Shown: positions 2,327-13,525 of the stretch, in pieces | Layout: every line of letters starts with the position of its first letter | Numbering within the stretch: the first letter of the stretch is position 1 | Origin: Methanosarcina mazei S-6 | GTDB taxonomy: Archaea; Halobacteriota; Methanosarcinia; Methanosarcinales; Methanosarcinaceae | Length of the DNA: 64,000 nucleotides | Direction: 5' to 3' | Assembly (NCBI RefSeq): GCF_000970205.1 | Contig: NZ_CP009512.1 | Coordinates: 1,488,001 to 1,552,000 of the forward strand | Position numbers and translations under genes: made by a program | Notes under the pieces: model-generated | What the model was told of the DNA's origin: nothing | What the model saw: the letters and a program-made list of their open reading frames with translations, nothing else | The model's database searches: none

Positions 2327-2566
2327 ATGAAAGAAACAAATAGCGCAAAAAATGTGGTAAAATCCGGGAAAAAAGAACAGTCTCCCGGAAGATGGATGCC
2401 TGCAGGAATCGGGGCGGGCGCAACAGTCGGAATACTGTTTGGAAACTTTATCCTTGCACCGTCTATGAGTTCTCAGGTTATGGGGCTGGTTCTCGGAATG
2501 TTGATGGGAGCTGGTGCAGGGCTGGTCATGGGACTGTCTTTTGGCTTCAGGAAAAGCTCAGAATAA
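2327..2566 (+). CDS. Small glycine-rich membrane protein
   Basis: A 79-residue protein of no recognised family. A charged N-terminus (about 20 residues, Lys/Ser-rich) is followed by two hydrophobic helices rich in Gly and Ala with GxxxG spacing (MPAGIGAGATVGILFG, then GLVLGMLMGAGAGLVMG), and a short charged tail. This looks like a two-helix membrane hairpin of glycine-zipper type. The start ATG has only a weak purine-rich site (AAGAGAA). The stop codon is followed within 2 nt by a 15-bp tandem repeat array. Confidence 0.6.
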   Translation: MKETNSAKNVVKSGKKEQSPGRWMPAGIGAGATVGILFGNFILAPSMSSQVMGLVLGMLMGAGAGLVMGLSFGFRKSSE

Positions 2567-2568
2567 CT

Positions 2569-2688
2569 AAAGATAATCAAATTAAAGATAATCAAATTAA
2601 AGATAATCAAATTAAAGATAATCAAATTAAAGATAATCAAATTAAAGATAATCAAATTAAAGATAATCAAATTAAAAATAATCAAATT
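2569..2688. repeat. 15-bp tandem repeat, eight copies
   Basis: Eight head-to-tail copies of AAAGATAATCAAATT, seven identical and the last with one change, starting 2 nt after the stop of the small membrane protein. One frame of the array is open and would encode a KDNQI pentapeptide repeat, but it does not belong to a convincing gene. It is downstream of, and co-directional with, the preceding gene. Confidence 0.95.
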
Positions 2689-2699
2689 TAAGGAATATT

Positions 2700-3428
2700 A
2701 CCAGAGGATAGAGATCTACCAGAGTACAGATCTACCAGAGTACAGAGATCTACCAGAGGACAGATCTACCAGAGGACAGAGGTCTAAAACTTTTGACGCC
2801 TGATCTCATCTCTTTTAATTTTCGTTGATTATTATACTTCTCCGTGTCTTCTCAGGTTCTCTTCTTAAATTGACTTTTATTTTTTTAATGACAGACTGCT
2901 TTTTGATCGGATAATTTAGCTGACTATCACTATTCTTTTAATACGGCTGGTTATTTTTTAGTTCCTGGTTTATACCCTATTCGAAATTTTTTAATTTTTA
3001 TCCTTAACTATGGTTACTATCATTCGATGTGCTTTTCTTTTCCAATCGTATTTTTATTTATTTAGTGTTTCCTTTTCCATTCTATTAAATCGTATCATTT
3101 TTTATGTTTTTATAATTGCTATTTTATTTTTATTACCTTTTCTGTCTTGCAATGCTCGATTTTTATCTTGTGGAATTTATTTTTTTAGGAAAACAGTGTC
3201 TCTCGATCCAATTACTGTTTTATTTTAAGTTACAAAGGGATAGAGTGTTATATGATAATTGTAATATTATACTGATTCTCTTATGCACTATTCAAACACT
3301 AATATTATGTCGGATAGTGATACTGACTATTCACTCACTAATATATTCAACTAAATGTAAAACTATACTCTGGATGTTACACTGACAATCCCCCATTAAA
3401 AACACTACCCTTCTGAGGTGCCGGATGT
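2700..3428. repeat. Short repeats, then AT-rich spacer
   Basis: Between 2700 and 2787 a roughly 16-22 bp unit containing GATCTACCAGAG(GA/TA)CA occurs about four times. The remainder up to the TPR gene is T-rich; its small ORFs (3010-3228, 3116-3385) translate to Phe/Leu/Ile-rich strings with no start context and are not called. A pair of similar stretches (CACTATTC...CACTAATATTA and ACTATTCACTCACTAATATA, about 3286-3350) precedes the TPR gene. Confidence 0.6.
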
Positions 3429-4616
3429 ATGGATTTTGAAGTAATTGATGACTTTGTGTACGAAGTAATTGGAATAATCGGGTCTGACCAGAACAACCTG
3501 TCCTGTGCAGCCGATTTTGCTCTGGAAAATTCGAAAGAAAAATCGTTCTCCCCCGAACTCCTGCTCAACCTGTCCAGTGCTTGCAGGAAGCAAAAAATGC
3601 ATATGGAAGAATATGTGTTTGCAAAGGTCTGTTTGACGCAGGCTTCCGGAAAGCTCCGCGAAGATTCCTGTTATGCGCTGGGTACTGCGGCACATCTGCT
3701 TGGCTTTTCCCCTGAAGCCGAAGCAAGCTACCTTGAAGTCCTGAAAGAAAACCCCGGGAATGCGGATGCGCGATGTGCTTATGCTGAACTTCTTTTAGAG
3801 CTTGGAAGGATTGAAGATGCAGAAAATGAGTATAAAACCGTACTTGAAAACTCACCCGAACATGTAAAGGCAAATGCAGGGTACGCTTACCTCCTTACCG
3901 AGTACGGGTATTTCAGGGAAGCAGAAGACCGTTACCTGATAGCTCTTGCCGGCAATCCCGATTATGTTCCTGCCAGAGGTGGGTATGCAAATATGCTTTT
4001 TGAGCTTGGAAGACTCAGGGATGCTGAAAAAGAGTACAGGCTTGCAATGAAGCTTGACCCTGAAGACCCGAGCCTCCACCACAATTTCGGAGTTCTTCTC
4101 TCCTTCCTCGAGCGTTATTCAGAAGCCGAAGAAGAATACAGAAAAGCTCTTTCCCTTAACCCCAGGCACAGGAGGACTCTTTTCAACTACGGAAACCTTC
4201 TTGCAAGGGAAGGCAGAGTCTCGGAAGCTGAAAAACAGTACCTGGAAGCCCTTGCCCTTGACCAGAATGATGCAAAAGTGCATTCCAATTATGCAAACCT
4301 CCTTGCCCGTTTCGGCAGGAGATATGAGGCTGAAATCGAATATAAAAAAGCTCTCAGCCTTGACCCGGAAAGTGCCGAGGGGCATTACAGCTATGGAAAC
4401 CTCCTTTCGGAACTCGGGCGCTTCTCCGAAGCAGAGGAAGAATATAAGAAAGCCCTTAACCTGAACCCCTATTATCCTCCTCTCCACTACAGCTACGGGC
4501 TGCTTATGAGAAAAATGAGGCGTTTCGACGAGGCTAAAATACAGTACATGAAAGCCATGCAGCTTGACCCGGATATCGGGAGCAAAATGACAGAAACCTG
4601 GATTATTCTGGATTAA
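3429..4616 (+). CDS. TPR-repeat protein A
   Basis: A 395-residue soluble protein. An N-terminal helical region of about 95 residues (MDFEVIDDFVYEVIG...) is followed by about eight or nine 34-residue tetratricopeptide repeats of the pattern Y-G/A-x-LL-x-x-x-G-R-x-x-E-A-E-x-x-Y-K-K-A-L-x-L-x-P. Such repeats form a superhelical scaffold for protein binding; no catalytic domain is present. It is a clear paralogue of the TPR gene at 6829, sharing the N-terminal region and the ENPGN junction into the repeats. The last codons (TWIILD and stop) are copied in degenerate repeats downstream. The partner protein is unknown. Confidence 0.85.
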   Translation: MDFEVIDDFVYEVIGIIGSDQNNLSCAADFALENSKEKSFSPELLLNLSSACRKQKMHMEEYVFAKVCLTQASGKLREDSCYALGTAAHLLGFSPEAEASYLEVLKENPGNADARCAYAELLLELGRIEDAENEYKTVLENSPEHVKANAGYAYLLTEYGYFREAEDRYLIALAGNPDYVPARGGYANMLFELGRLRDAEKEYRLAMKLDPEDPSLHHNFGVLLSFLERYSEAEEEYRKALSLNPRHRRTLFNYGNLLAREGRVSEAEKQYLEALALDQNDAKVHSNYANLLARFGRRYEAEIEYKKALSLDPESAEGHYSYGNLLSELGRFSEAEEEYKKALNLNPYYPPLHYSYGLLMRKMRRFDEAKIQYMKAMQLDPDIGSKMTETWIILD

Positions 4617-4953: not shown

Positions 4954-5775
4954 TCAGCTTTCGAAAGTAATTATTTTTATTTCCTCTCTTCTCATCATTC
5001 CGAAAGCAGCAGCATTTCCAAGTCCAACATAATCAGGGCAGGAAAAAAGGGAAAGGAGTTTCCCATCAAACCACCATTCATACCCGGTCCTTAAGGCTGT
5101 ATGCCCTCTTATGATTCTTTTCAGGCTATTCACTTTTAAAAAGCCTTCAACGATATCAGGTCCGAATTCCCTGACGGTAGAACCTCTTGATGAGGTGACC
5201 AGCCCCGGGCGTTCAGACGGGTCATTCCAGAGATAAGGAAATGCCCCTTCCTTTGTGATAGTATCGATATTTTCTGTTCCGTTGATTCCCCCGTGTACGC
5301 AGAAAGTATGTCCAGATACCAATGCTGCTACCGGCAGCCTTTCGTATGTCCTGCTGATCTCAAGAAGAAAATCCCTGTCAAAATCTATCTCTTCAAAAAA
5401 GCCGTAATAAATATTCATATCAGCACTTTCATGGTTTCCCCTCAAAAGAAAGACATCCTCAGGCTCTTCGAGTTTCATCCGGAAAAGCTCTATGAGGACT
5501 TCCGTACCCTCCGTTCCGCGGTCCACATAGTCTCCCAGAAAGAGAATTTTTTTACAGCCCAGTTTTTTTCTCATTGCTATAATAAACTCAAGGGCATCAA
5601 GGTTTCCATGTATATCTCCTATCAGCATAATTAATTCGGGATCAATCCTGAGCACAGCAGGTTCGGATTCCAGAATCCCATTTATCTCCGGCATAATCAG
5701 GCGCAATTCTTGCTTTTTTCTTGCTTTTCTCAGGCTGGTCACAATAAACTCCCCCTGATAATCCTTTTTAATCAT
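4954..5775 (-). CDS. PPP-family serine/threonine protein phosphatase
   Basis: A 273-residue phosphoprotein phosphatase. The metal-binding signature is complete and in order: GDIHGN at about residue 53, GDYVDRG about 28 residues later, GNHES, then VHGGI and a late RGHT. These supply the Asp, His and Asn ligands of the two-metal centre shared with PP1/PP2A and the archaeal PP1-arch enzymes. It should dephosphorylate Ser/Thr (perhaps also Tyr) on proteins in the cytoplasm. The first 45 residues precede the catalytic domain. It faces the TPR gene convergently; substrates cannot be read from context. Confidence 0.9.
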   Translation of the reverse strand: MIKKDYQGEFIVTSLRKARKKQELRLIMPEINGILESEPAVLRIDPELIMLIGDIHGNLDALEFIIAMRKKLGCKKILFLGDYVDRGTEGTEVLIELFRMKLEEPEDVFLLRGNHESADMNIYYGFFEEIDFDRDFLLEISRTYERLPVAALVSGHTFCVHGGINGTENIDTITKEGAFPYLWNDPSERPGLVTSSRGSTVREFGPDIVEGFLKVNSLKRIIRGHTALRTGYEWWFDGKLLSLFSCPDYVGLGNAAAFGMMRREEIKIITFES

Positions 5776-6149: not shown

Positions 6150-6542
6150 ACGGTAGAATTTGACATAAGCGAACAGGATCCCGAAGAGATGGATCTTGCA
6201 GATATTGCACTTGAATATGACGAGCTGGTCTCGGCAATATCTGTTCTTGAAAAGCGGCGGGAAGAACTCAGGAACCGTATTCTGAATACTTTTGACGAGA
6301 AAGGAATAGATATCCTGAGAATAGGAAATGTGGAACTTAAGAGGAAAAGAGTGGACTGGAAACTCTGGAAGATAAGAAAGCTGAAATCATATCTTCAGGA
6401 GCGGGAACTCTGGGATATGGTTGAATCCGTTGACAGGAAAACCCTCACTAAACTGATTGAAAGAGGTTTCCTGACCGAACAGGAGCTGGAGGGCATGTAT
6501 GATATCGAGCCGAGGTACAGTCTGTATGTGAACAGGGTTTAA
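6150..6542 (+). CDS. Conserved-looking helical protein, probable near-cognate start
   Basis: The first canonical start, ATG at 6189, gives 117 residues, but it has no ribosome site. An excellent AGGAGG lies at 6136-6141, and the same frame is open from it. The codon at the right distance (8 nt) is ACG at 6150, giving a 130-residue protein whose added residues (VEFDISEQDPEE) read as normal coding sequence. The GTG at 6143 is in another frame and stops after six codons. The protein is acidic at the N-terminus with a probable coiled coil (about residues 25-50, LVSAISVLEKRREELRNR), then a basic middle (LKRKRVDWKLWKIRKLK). I do not recognise the family. Confidence 0.65.
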   Translation, partial: TVEFDISEQDPEEMDLADIALEYDELVSAISVLEKRREELRNRILNTFDEKGIDILRIGNVELKRKRVDWKLWKIRKLKSYLQERELWDMVESVDRKTLTKLIERGFLTEQELEGMYDIEPRYSLYVNRV

Positions 6543-6584: not shown

Positions 6585-6828
6585 AAAATTAAATTCATGT
6601 GTTTTTATTCGCAGCATGGGATGCGGGAGGAAATCTTTCCCAATTTTCTGAATATATTATCCTGTCGGTCAAACGCTGTTCTATTCTTTAATTTTTATTT
6701 TTTCGGTTTGCTCTGATACCTTGTATTTTGAAATCCATCTTTTCCAATTTATTGTATCCATTTAATATAACTAATTATTTATAGTCTGCCAAATAAATTG
6801 AATCTGGTCATAAATTTTAGGAGGTTTT

Positions 6829-7887
6829 TTGAGCATGGAAATGGATGCCGTAGACAAGCTGGTTTTTCATGTAATCGAGAAGGTCTCTGAAGATGAATGT
6901 GATCTCGATAAGGCAACTGAGTCTGTCATTTCTTTTTCACATGAGAATTTGCTTTCACCTGAGACCCTGCTGAAACTCTCCTTTATTTTCGGCAATGATA
7001 AGATGTTCCGGGAAGAATATGTAGTCTCAAGGGCTTCTGCTTCTCTTTTCTCAGGTAAAATGCGGGAAGAAGCCCATATGGTGGCAGGAAAAACGGCTTC
7101 TTTACTGGGGCTTATGGAATCCGCTGCCAGGGAATTCAAAGAAATTCTTGAAGAAAATCCGGGAAATATAGAAGCCCTCTGCGGATATGGATCTATGCTT
7201 GCCGGGGCAGGGTAGCTGGACGGAGCACGGATTCAGTATGAAAAAGCTCTTGAGTTCAATCCTGACCATGTGGAAACCCTTTGCAGTTATGGCTGCGTGC
7301 TTTACAGGCTCAGCCAGCTGGATAAAGCCGAAGAAGTATATAGAAGAGCCCTTCTTCTTGACCCCGATCATGTCGAATCGCACTGCGGGTATGGAATTTT
7401 GCTCAACAGGCGCGGACAGAAAACCGAAGCAGGCCTCCATTATGCACGTGCTCTTGAAATCGACCCGGAGCACGTTGAATCAAATTTCCGCTATGCACGT
7501 CTGCTTGAGGAAAAAGGGGAGCCAATTGAGGCCGAAACTTATTACATAGTAGCTCTCAAAGCAGACCCCGAAAGCTCTAAACTCCACCTTTATTATGCCC
7601 GCCTGCTTGCACAACACGGACTCATCCATGGGGCAAGAGTGCACTTCAGGTATGCGCTTAAAATTAGCCCTGAAGACGTTGAAGCTCACTGCGAATATGC
7701 AAGGCTGCTTGCCAGGTTCGGGCACAGGCATGAAGCTGAAGTTCAGTACAAAAAAGCCCTTGAACTCAACCCCGGGCATTTTGGGAGCCTTTCCGGTTAT
7801 GGAGATCTGCTTAAAGAAAAGGGGCAGTACACCGAAGCTGAAAAAATTTACAGGCAGGCAGAATGTTTCAGACAGGACGCCTGGTAA
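6829..7887 (+). CDS. TPR-repeat protein B with in-frame TAG (possible pyrrolysine)
   Basis: Two open stretches in the same frame, 6829-7212 and 7216-7887, are separated only by TAG at 7213-7215. Read through, they give 352 residues with the special codon at residue 129. The TAG sits inside a TPR unit: residues before it (ENPGN...LCGYGSMLAGAG) and after it (LDGARIQYEKAL) match one 34-residue repeat, and the paralogue at 3429 has Arg at that place. About seven TPR units follow the N-terminal helical domain. The start is TTG with AGGAGG about 5 nt upstream; an ATG six bases later is possible. UAG as pyrrolysine is known in Methanosarcina. A single C-to-T change of CAG would also produce it, making this a pseudogene; I cannot decide from sequence. 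Confidence 0.75.
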
Positions 7888-7930: not shown

Positions 7931-8641
7931 TCAGTAAAGCCGTAGAGGCTCAATTCCTTTTTTTTCCATAAGGCAGGCAGGGATATCAAGTACCTGCCGA
8001 ACTGAATCGATTATAATTCCATCTGAAGTCGCAATGATAAGGTTTTTTTCTGAATTTCCTCCTTCTCTTTTCAGGTCAAAATCCGCAGTTTTTGATGTGT
8101 ATGCGTCTCCCAAAATCCCGTAATTTTCAATTTTGCGGCGGATGAAACCTGCAAGTTCTCCACTCCGGCTAATCTGTGAATCAAGAAGGAAGCTTACTGA
8201 CTTCAGGCTGGCTTCTGATAAAAATTCAAGGACTGAGTCAAGGGCTTCCTCGAGATCTTCAGCCTGGTTTTTTTTGCCGAAATAATAGCGTGTGTCCCTG
8301 ATATATCCGTCGTCGCAGAACCACATGGGTTCGTTTTTGAGGAGGCTGTCGACACTCAGCAGGACATTGTACCCATCAAGCAGAAGGTCTCTGTTATTTA
8401 TGCTATCACAGGCTATTTTCTTCCTGATCCTCGAGACTACTTTTTCCGGGGAAACAATTACTCTGCTGAGAATGTGCCGCTCCTCTGCGCTTAGCCTGGA
8501 ATGCTCAGCTACAAAACGGATAGTTGCGAATTTAGGATAGCCCCAGCGCAGGATACTCCGGATATCTCTGGCAGGCTTCAACAATTTTTCTTTCGGGTCT
8601 GACCCGGGAAAAGAGGCAGTACTCTCTTGCATAATTCTCAT
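7931..8641 (-). CDS. DUF434 protein
   Basis: A 236-residue protein of the DUF434 family found in archaea and some bacteria. Recognisable parts are the N-terminal DIRSILRWGYPK...LSAEERHILSRV segment, the DGYNVLLSV stretch near residue 98, and a C-terminal half with FLLDSQISRSGEL and a SDGIIIDSV strand, arranged like a Rossmann/PIN-type nucleotide-binding or nuclease fold. The function is unknown. It is convergent with TPR gene B and divergent from the alanine dehydrogenase gene. Confidence 0.75.
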   Translation of the reverse strand: MRIMQESTASFPGSDPKEKLLKPARDIRSILRWGYPKFATIRFVAEHSRLSAEERHILSRVIVSPEKVVSRIRKKIACDSINNRDLLLDGYNVLLSVDSLLKNEPMWFCDDGYIRDTRYYFGKKNQAEDLEEALDSVLEFLSEASLKSVSFLLDSQISRSGELAGFIRRKIENYGILGDAYTSKTADFDLKREGGNSEKNLIIATSDGIIIDSVRQVLDIPACLMEKKGIEPLRLY

Positions 8642-12961: not shown

Positions 12962-13525
12962 GATGCATCTGTGGCGCGTCAGTTATTGAACTATCATGCC
13001 GCACTGGCGAGAAAGCTGGAGCCAGAGAAAAGAATTTTTGAAGGACTTGGCATCCGGGACTCAATGATGGCGAATAATCTGGAGTATATAGTATCCCGTG
13101 AGCGTGCAGGGGAAAAGTGCTGGTTTTTGCCCACAATAACCATCTCCAGCGAGGAAAAACACAGTGGCAACTTGGAGCTGACCTGCTGGCATGGTGGTCG
13201 GTGGGATCTCACCTCAATGAGGTATTCGGTCCACGCTATGCAGTTATCGGCTCTGCAGTCGGCGTCTCGGATGCAAATGGCATCGGGCAACCTGGAGCCA
13301 GGTACTCTTGAAGCGCACCTTACTGCCGCGCCAGGACCAGTACGGTTTATTCCAACTAACAATGGCAGGAGGCTTCCAATCATGGCAACAACAGATTTTC
13401 CTGCCCGCTCGGGCAGCATGAACCCTACCTATTTTGCACTAACTCCTCGAAGCCTCACCGACTTCGACTGGCTTGCTGTCCTTGACTCAACCCAATACAG
13501 CCGGGGAGGACCGACGCTGAAATAA
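12962..13525 (+). pseudogene. Erythromycin-esterase-family remnant, 5'-truncated and frameshifted
   Basis: Three segments read as the C-terminal half of a bacterial erythromycin esterase-type protein but lie in two frames. Segment 1 (12962-about 13105) has ARQLLNYHAALARK and IRDSMMANNLEYIVSRER. Segment 2 (about 13108-13300, the -1 frame) has GKVLVFAHNNHLQRG, HLNEVFGPRYAVIGSAVG and ANGIGQP. Segment 3 (about 13301-13525, first frame again) has EPGTLEAHLTAAPGP and LTDFDWLAVLDSTQYSRGG. A one-base loss is thus followed by a one-base gain, leaving a 184-codon open frame with a scrambled middle that holds the catalytic His region. The N-terminal half is absent, ending abruptly in AT-rich host sequence. 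Its composition and family point to acquisition from a bacterium. Confidence 0.8.

Follow-up and report, generated by a model that had tools for sequence, protein, structure and literature searches.

In the methyltransferases MtmB, MtbB and MttB, an in-frame UAG conserved across species and located in the active site is read through in genomes that carry pylTSBCD, and mtmB is present in Methanosarcina mazei as well. Pyrrolysine has also been observed at a species-specific, non-essential UAG in Thg1 (tRNA-His guanylyltransferase) of M. acetivorans (Heinemann et al. 2009, as reported in PMC2933860). Amber-containing transposases have been described in M. acetivorans and M. mazei (PMC2933860), and 16 pyrrolysine proteins, including a Sel1-repeat protein, have been predicted in Ca. 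Methanomethylophilus alvus (PMC4153887, Table 7). PMC3639795 predicts further drift-like pyrrolysine cases. Our search of full texts returned no paper that connects pyrrolysine with tetratricopeptide proteins of M. mazei in this way.

The locus analysed here, a tetratricopeptide-repeat (TPR) gene of M. mazei S-6 with one in-frame TAG, can be placed against each of these systems. It shares with the methyltransferases an in-frame UAG, very probably read, in a pylTSBCD genome, whereas its UAG is unconserved and lies in a surface turn. Like Thg1, its closest known counterpart, it combines one species-specific UAG with sense codons in orthologues and an otherwise intact frame; pyrrolysine was physically observed in Thg1, whereas we infer it for the TPR gene, and an enzyme is here compared with a scaffold of a different family. 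The amber transposases, of which three copies occur in our 464-kb sample, are likewise non-methyltransferases with one in-frame TAG and an intact downstream frame, but their TAG is common to the whole family and spread by transposition, while the TPR gene is a single chromosomal gene. Ca. M. alvus, an archaeon that is likewise pyl-positive, offers drift-like amber codons in unrelated genes, a TPR-like repeat family among them, but it belongs to a different order and ends 1.6% of its genes in TAG, against 4.5% in our M. mazei sample. The kind of event is already known, and the TPR gene adds a candidate case outside methylamine metabolism.

Within the window, by which we mean the whole stretch of 64,000 nucleotides that was analysed, the TPR gene occupies positions 6835..7887 (+), running from ATG 6835 through a single internal TAG (7213..7215, +) to a terminal TAA (7885..7887, +). 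The in-frame TAG described by the first-pass annotation was borne out by both the sequence and the orthologue alignment. A Shine-Dalgarno motif, GGAGG (6820..6824, +), and ATG 6835 are kept in all orthologues whose upstream sequences were compared. Counting from this conserved start places the TAG at codon 127 of 351 and gives the product ending there 126 residues, which corrects the residue 129 and the 128-residue truncated form given previously. The long open frame reported past the TAG (7216..7884, +) stands, with 223 sense codons, the figure of 224 having included the stop. Alignment with the orthologues revealed no second stop, frameshift or deletion in the gene.

If the TAG is read, the product has 350 residues and 10 helix pairs. 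A Pfam profile search assigned it to the TPR family, and an AlphaFold2 model built with 17 orthologues gave a TPR solenoid of ten helix pairs (mean pLDDT 93.7). In this model residue 127 falls in the 3-residue turn 125-127, between helices 112-124 and 128-141, which upholds the proposal that both flanks of the TAG make one TPR unit (7168..7269, +, delimited by AlphaFold2 helices and TPR matches); the product ending at the TAG stops after the first helix of one TPR. A random in-frame TAG has a negligible chance of preceding 223 codons that are homologous to one and the same protein in all relatives, which leaves translation versus recent nonsense mutation as the sole question.

A gene split, with a second coding unit starting anew past the TAG, could draw on an in-frame GTG at 7270, but this codon has no Shine-Dalgarno motif, the ATG closest by (7238) lies in another frame, a start at 7270 would fall in a TPR helix, and no orthologue is split. 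We regard such an arrangement as scarcely credible. The homologues align without a break through the UAG, opposite which they carry a sense codon.

The genome is equipped to decode UAG. M. mazei S-6 is represented by a single contig of 4,142,816 bases (99.97% complete), in which pylT (tRNA-Pyl, anticodon CTA), pylS, pylB, pylC and pylD are all intact and form one cluster adjoining mtmB, so that the presence of pylTSBCD, which the first-pass annotation had asked to be checked, is established. Both pylS and pylB score above curated cut-offs in profile searches, and in its catalytic domain PylRS shows full identity to the solved PDB chain 2q7e_A, which is the M. mazei enzyme. The adjoining mtmB carries its usual in-frame TAG (mtmB was seen at L059 and L076). 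The pylB gene itself ends in TAG, which means that UAG does terminate in this genome; the same pylB end is stated in PMC2933860. Since PylS exceeds the cut-off in 27 of 31 Methanosarcina genomes, other species could also decode a TAG at codon 127.

Published work on Methanosarcina describes the pyl cassette as constitutively expressed (PMC4153887), and M. acetivorans puts pyrrolysine into a foreign reporter (PMC2933860). Decoding of UAG in Methanosarcina competes with termination (PMC8211752), so the 126- and 350-residue products are both expected. A downstream RNA structure is not required for UAG decoding (PMC8211752; PMC2933860); in the 100 nt from the TAG, predicted structure was no stronger than in shuffled sequences (z = 0.10), and no PYLIS-like structure, such as mtmB has, was found.

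Comparison of orthologues locates the change at codon 127 in the M. mazei lineage. Across 26 full-length orthologues from about 24 distinct genomes of Methanosarcina and near relatives, the codon is AAA (Lys) in some 18-20 and GAA (Glu) in six, and TAG is absent at this site from all 26 (about 24 species-level genomes). The two closest orthologues (83% and 79% identity) carry GAA, and the reconstructed ancestor of M. mazei and its sister favours GAA (0.87) over AAA (0.13) under a raised omega for a variable site. With GAA in the sister and the ancestor, two base changes are needed to reach TAG. The route probably ran through GAG (or AAG), the simplest path being a silent GAA to GAG change followed by G to T. 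The first-pass annotation had considered a CAG-to-TAG mutation, which the GAA and AAA codons of the relatives rule out. Its observation that the closest paralogue has Arg at the matching position is correct for the gene at 3429-4616 but draws the wrong comparison, the orthologues having Lys or Glu. A conservative Lys to pyrrolysine swap at codon 127 is not supported either, the nearest relatives having Glu.

A sequencing or assembly error as the source of the TAG is a remote prospect: the codon is known from one genome of M. mazei, but that genome is a nearly complete single contig, and the codon lies two base differences, not one, from the sister's GAA. The UAG is species-restricted, at a varying, exposed residue (K/E in relatives, turn 125-127 in the model). 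An unconserved UAG in a variable, exposed turn does not match selected pyrrolysine of the methyltransferase kind and does match the Thg1 kind. As the UAG is conserved in no orthologue, selection is not readable from the codon itself.

We compared selection on the M. mazei terminal branch with the tree-wide estimate, using a Muse-Gaut codon model and 21 sequences. Past the TAG, omega on the M. mazei branch was 0.216 (95% CI 0.15-0.35) against 0.194 tree-wide; before the TAG, the corresponding values were 0.36 (0.20-0.75) and 0.322. Omega = 1 past the TAG on the M. mazei branch was rejected (2dlnL 31), and a neutral final part could take up at most 17.5% of that branch, larger fractions being rejected. 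The region past the TAG in M. mazei is as constrained as in relatives, and a TAG younger than the last ~17% of the branch escapes this test. Relaxed selection past the TAG was not seen in the codon model of 21 sequences, whose power is limited to neutral periods of more than ~17% of the branch. Neighbouring genes likewise show a long M. mazei branch, which makes a gene-specific event unneeded, and we dropped the notion of a special rate history for the TPR gene. Judged by its sequence, the TPR gene is not a decayed pseudogene. The proposed look at orthologues did bring out ordinary sense codons, and the downstream decay or frameshifts that were to be sought alongside them did not appear; with the pyl genes present, every outcome named in advance as contrary to pyrrolysine decoding was looked for and none was found.

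A rival reading is a recent nonsense allele, with a TAG so young in the strain or species that the gene is a young pseudogene whose downstream part has not yet decayed. Such an allele would be in keeping with the absence of the TAG from all orthologues. The gene is also cleanly missing between conserved neighbours on both sides in one complete Methanosarcina genome (G015; L060, about 13042-13163); it is therefore dispensable in at least one relative, and a null allele could be tolerated. Termination at the TAG of pylB, and a lesion by another stop (TAA) in a Methanosarcina TPR gene of MAG G010, point the same way. Against it stand the lack of a second lesion, a downstream omega like that of relatives and a neutral branch fraction of <=0.175; moreover, with pylTSBCD intact, UAG would be partly suppressed and the allele would fall short of a clean null. 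Coding continuation is, in addition, concentrated at TAG and not at TAA or TGA, as detailed below. Taken together, we consider a recent nonsense allele unlikely, though it deserves real weight.

The usage of stops across the genome was surveyed in 464 kb (the window plus twenty 20-kb stretches, 11% of the genome) containing 379 called genes. TAG ends 17 of these 379 genes (4.5%), in agreement with the 4-5% or so given for Methanosarcina (PMC4153887); as a stop in M. mazei, TAG is rare but normal. The first-pass annotation had proposed avoidance of TAG as a stop; none of 47 other selected window ORFs does end in TAG, but at a frequency of 4.5% this has P = 0.12 and is not significant. In the 464-kb sample, a continuation of the frame past the stop with strong coding signal was found at 5/17 TAG versus 10/362 TAA/TGA (Fisher p = 2e-4), or at 4/16 TAG without the window, which had been picked by the first-pass annotation. 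The five TAG continuations are one mtmB, three amber transposase copies and the TPR gene, whereas at least nine of the ten TAA/TGA continuations look like adjacent genes or non-coding repeats. The tenth, L072:19560-20000 (-), has 293 in-frame ThiF-domain codons after its TAA and lacks a suitable start close by; here M. mazei may have a true nonsense interruption. A second TAG candidate, L086:14373-14876 (TAG plus 77 codons), was set aside, its downstream part being a separate gene family in relatives.

We conclude that the UAG of the TPR gene is very probably read as pyrrolysine, at least part of the time. The account that we favour, and consider probable, is a near-neutral pyrrolysine substitution of the sort seen in Thg1 of M. 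acetivorans. The codon of a variable, exposed residue (probably GAA, via GAG) would have turned into TAG in the lineage of M. mazei, where tRNA-Pyl charged with pyrrolysine would compete with the release factor at the UAG. Part of the ribosomes would insert pyrrolysine and complete the 350-residue solenoid, and the release factor would end the remaining chains as the 126-residue fragment. Pyrrolysine would sit in an exposed turn, at a place where Lys, Glu and Arg are tolerated, and the amount of full-length scaffold made would suffice to hold the gene under selection. Decoding as pyrrolysine, its efficiency and its neutrality are all put forward here from sequence comparison. The predicted tryptic peptide across residue 127 is EILEENPGNIEALCGYGSMLAGAG[O]LDGAR, where pyrrolysine (O) has a residue mass of ~237.15 Da.

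The first-pass reading of the TAG as a pyrrolysine codon is thus partly supported, by the intact pyl genes and by the conserved, constrained downstream frame, even as several of its supporting details fail. Its view that use in a scaffold would be unusual was overstated: the position is a variable exposed turn, the UAG is unconserved, and drift is already on record as yielding species-specific UAGs in unrelated genes. Our data offer no evidence for a chemical role of pyrrolysine in the TPR protein, while its membership among pyrrolysine proteins appears likely on sequence.

Competition between UAG decoding and termination (PMC8211752), which predicts both products, also invites a dual-product switch, in which the 126- and 350-residue forms would both be functional and pyrrolysine supply would set the read-through and so regulate the scaffold. 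However, the cut inside a TPR unit leaves an unpaired helix in the AlphaFold2 model, the TAG is kept in no other species, and downstream RNA structure is indistinguishable from shuffles. We consider this switch very unlikely.

Near-neutral substitution by pyrrolysine gains context from other Methanosarcina TPR genes. Two more full-length members carry exactly one in-frame stop, which is a TAG of independent origin in both. In Methanosarcina sp. KYL-1 (G045, NZ_VOUA01000018; L142/L105), the orthologue of the tandem TPR paralogue has a TAG at residue 75, a position with AAG/AAA in 27 orthologues and AGG in 2; its 395-residue frame is otherwise intact, and omega past the TAG is 0.18 (0.12-0.24). 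A Lys to pyrrolysine swap would fit this paralogue, which probably had AAG/AAA at the site before the TAG. In G040, a 1024-residue TPR protein (L106:2661-5735, = L143) has one in-frame TAG in an inter-repeat turn, at which orthologues have mostly Ser or Pro codons, and omega past the TAG is 0.24 (0.16-0.38). PylS is present in both genomes.

Full-length members of the three TAG-bearing TPR orthogroups contain no inner TAA or TGA. Outside these orthogroups, the counter-example already mentioned comes from MAG G010 (L109, G010:C50, 41-799), where one TAA breaks an otherwise open TPR frame; PylS was not found in this MAG. Other stop-flagged TPR places were discarded: a TAA in G013 and a TGA in G041 are ordinary gene ends, one place in G003 and one in G040 are decayed copies, and a TAG in a TPR gene of G011 was left uncounted because of assembly Ns, with PylS not found. 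TPR genes may be enriched for TAG or merely numerous. Amber codons have arisen independently in three gene families of Methanosarcina TPR scaffolds, one case in each. That they recur because such scaffolds benefit from pyrrolysine, or from a read-through ratio linked to its supply, seems highly improbable to us; if it were true, scaffold length or chemistry would report methylamine metabolism.

Few pyrrolysine proteins are listed that lie outside methylamine metabolism; the TPR gene joins them as a well-constrained candidate, and it comes from the species whose PylRS is a standard tool of genetic code expansion. Together with the two parallel cases, it suggests that UAG drifts as a sense codon into ordinary Methanosarcina genes at a detectable rate. 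Such drift would tie the cell to its pyl genes, and genes with a drifted UAG would be mis-annotated as pseudogenes or split genes.

The surroundings of the TPR gene form a cluster kept genus-wide (window 4954-5775 (-), 6189-6542 (+) and 7931-8641 (-)). Its members are the TPR paralogue, a calcineurin-like phosphoesterase, a 117-residue protein without a family match, a DUF434/DUF5616 protein and an ornithine cyclodeaminase/alanine dehydrogenase-like gene. The tandem paralogue (3429..4616, +), identified from sequence and orthologue comparison, has 395 residues and no TAG in this genome. Further upstream (window 2327-2800), the TAA stop of a small protein gene is followed by an in-frame tandem repeat that reads LKIIK (KDNQI in another frame).
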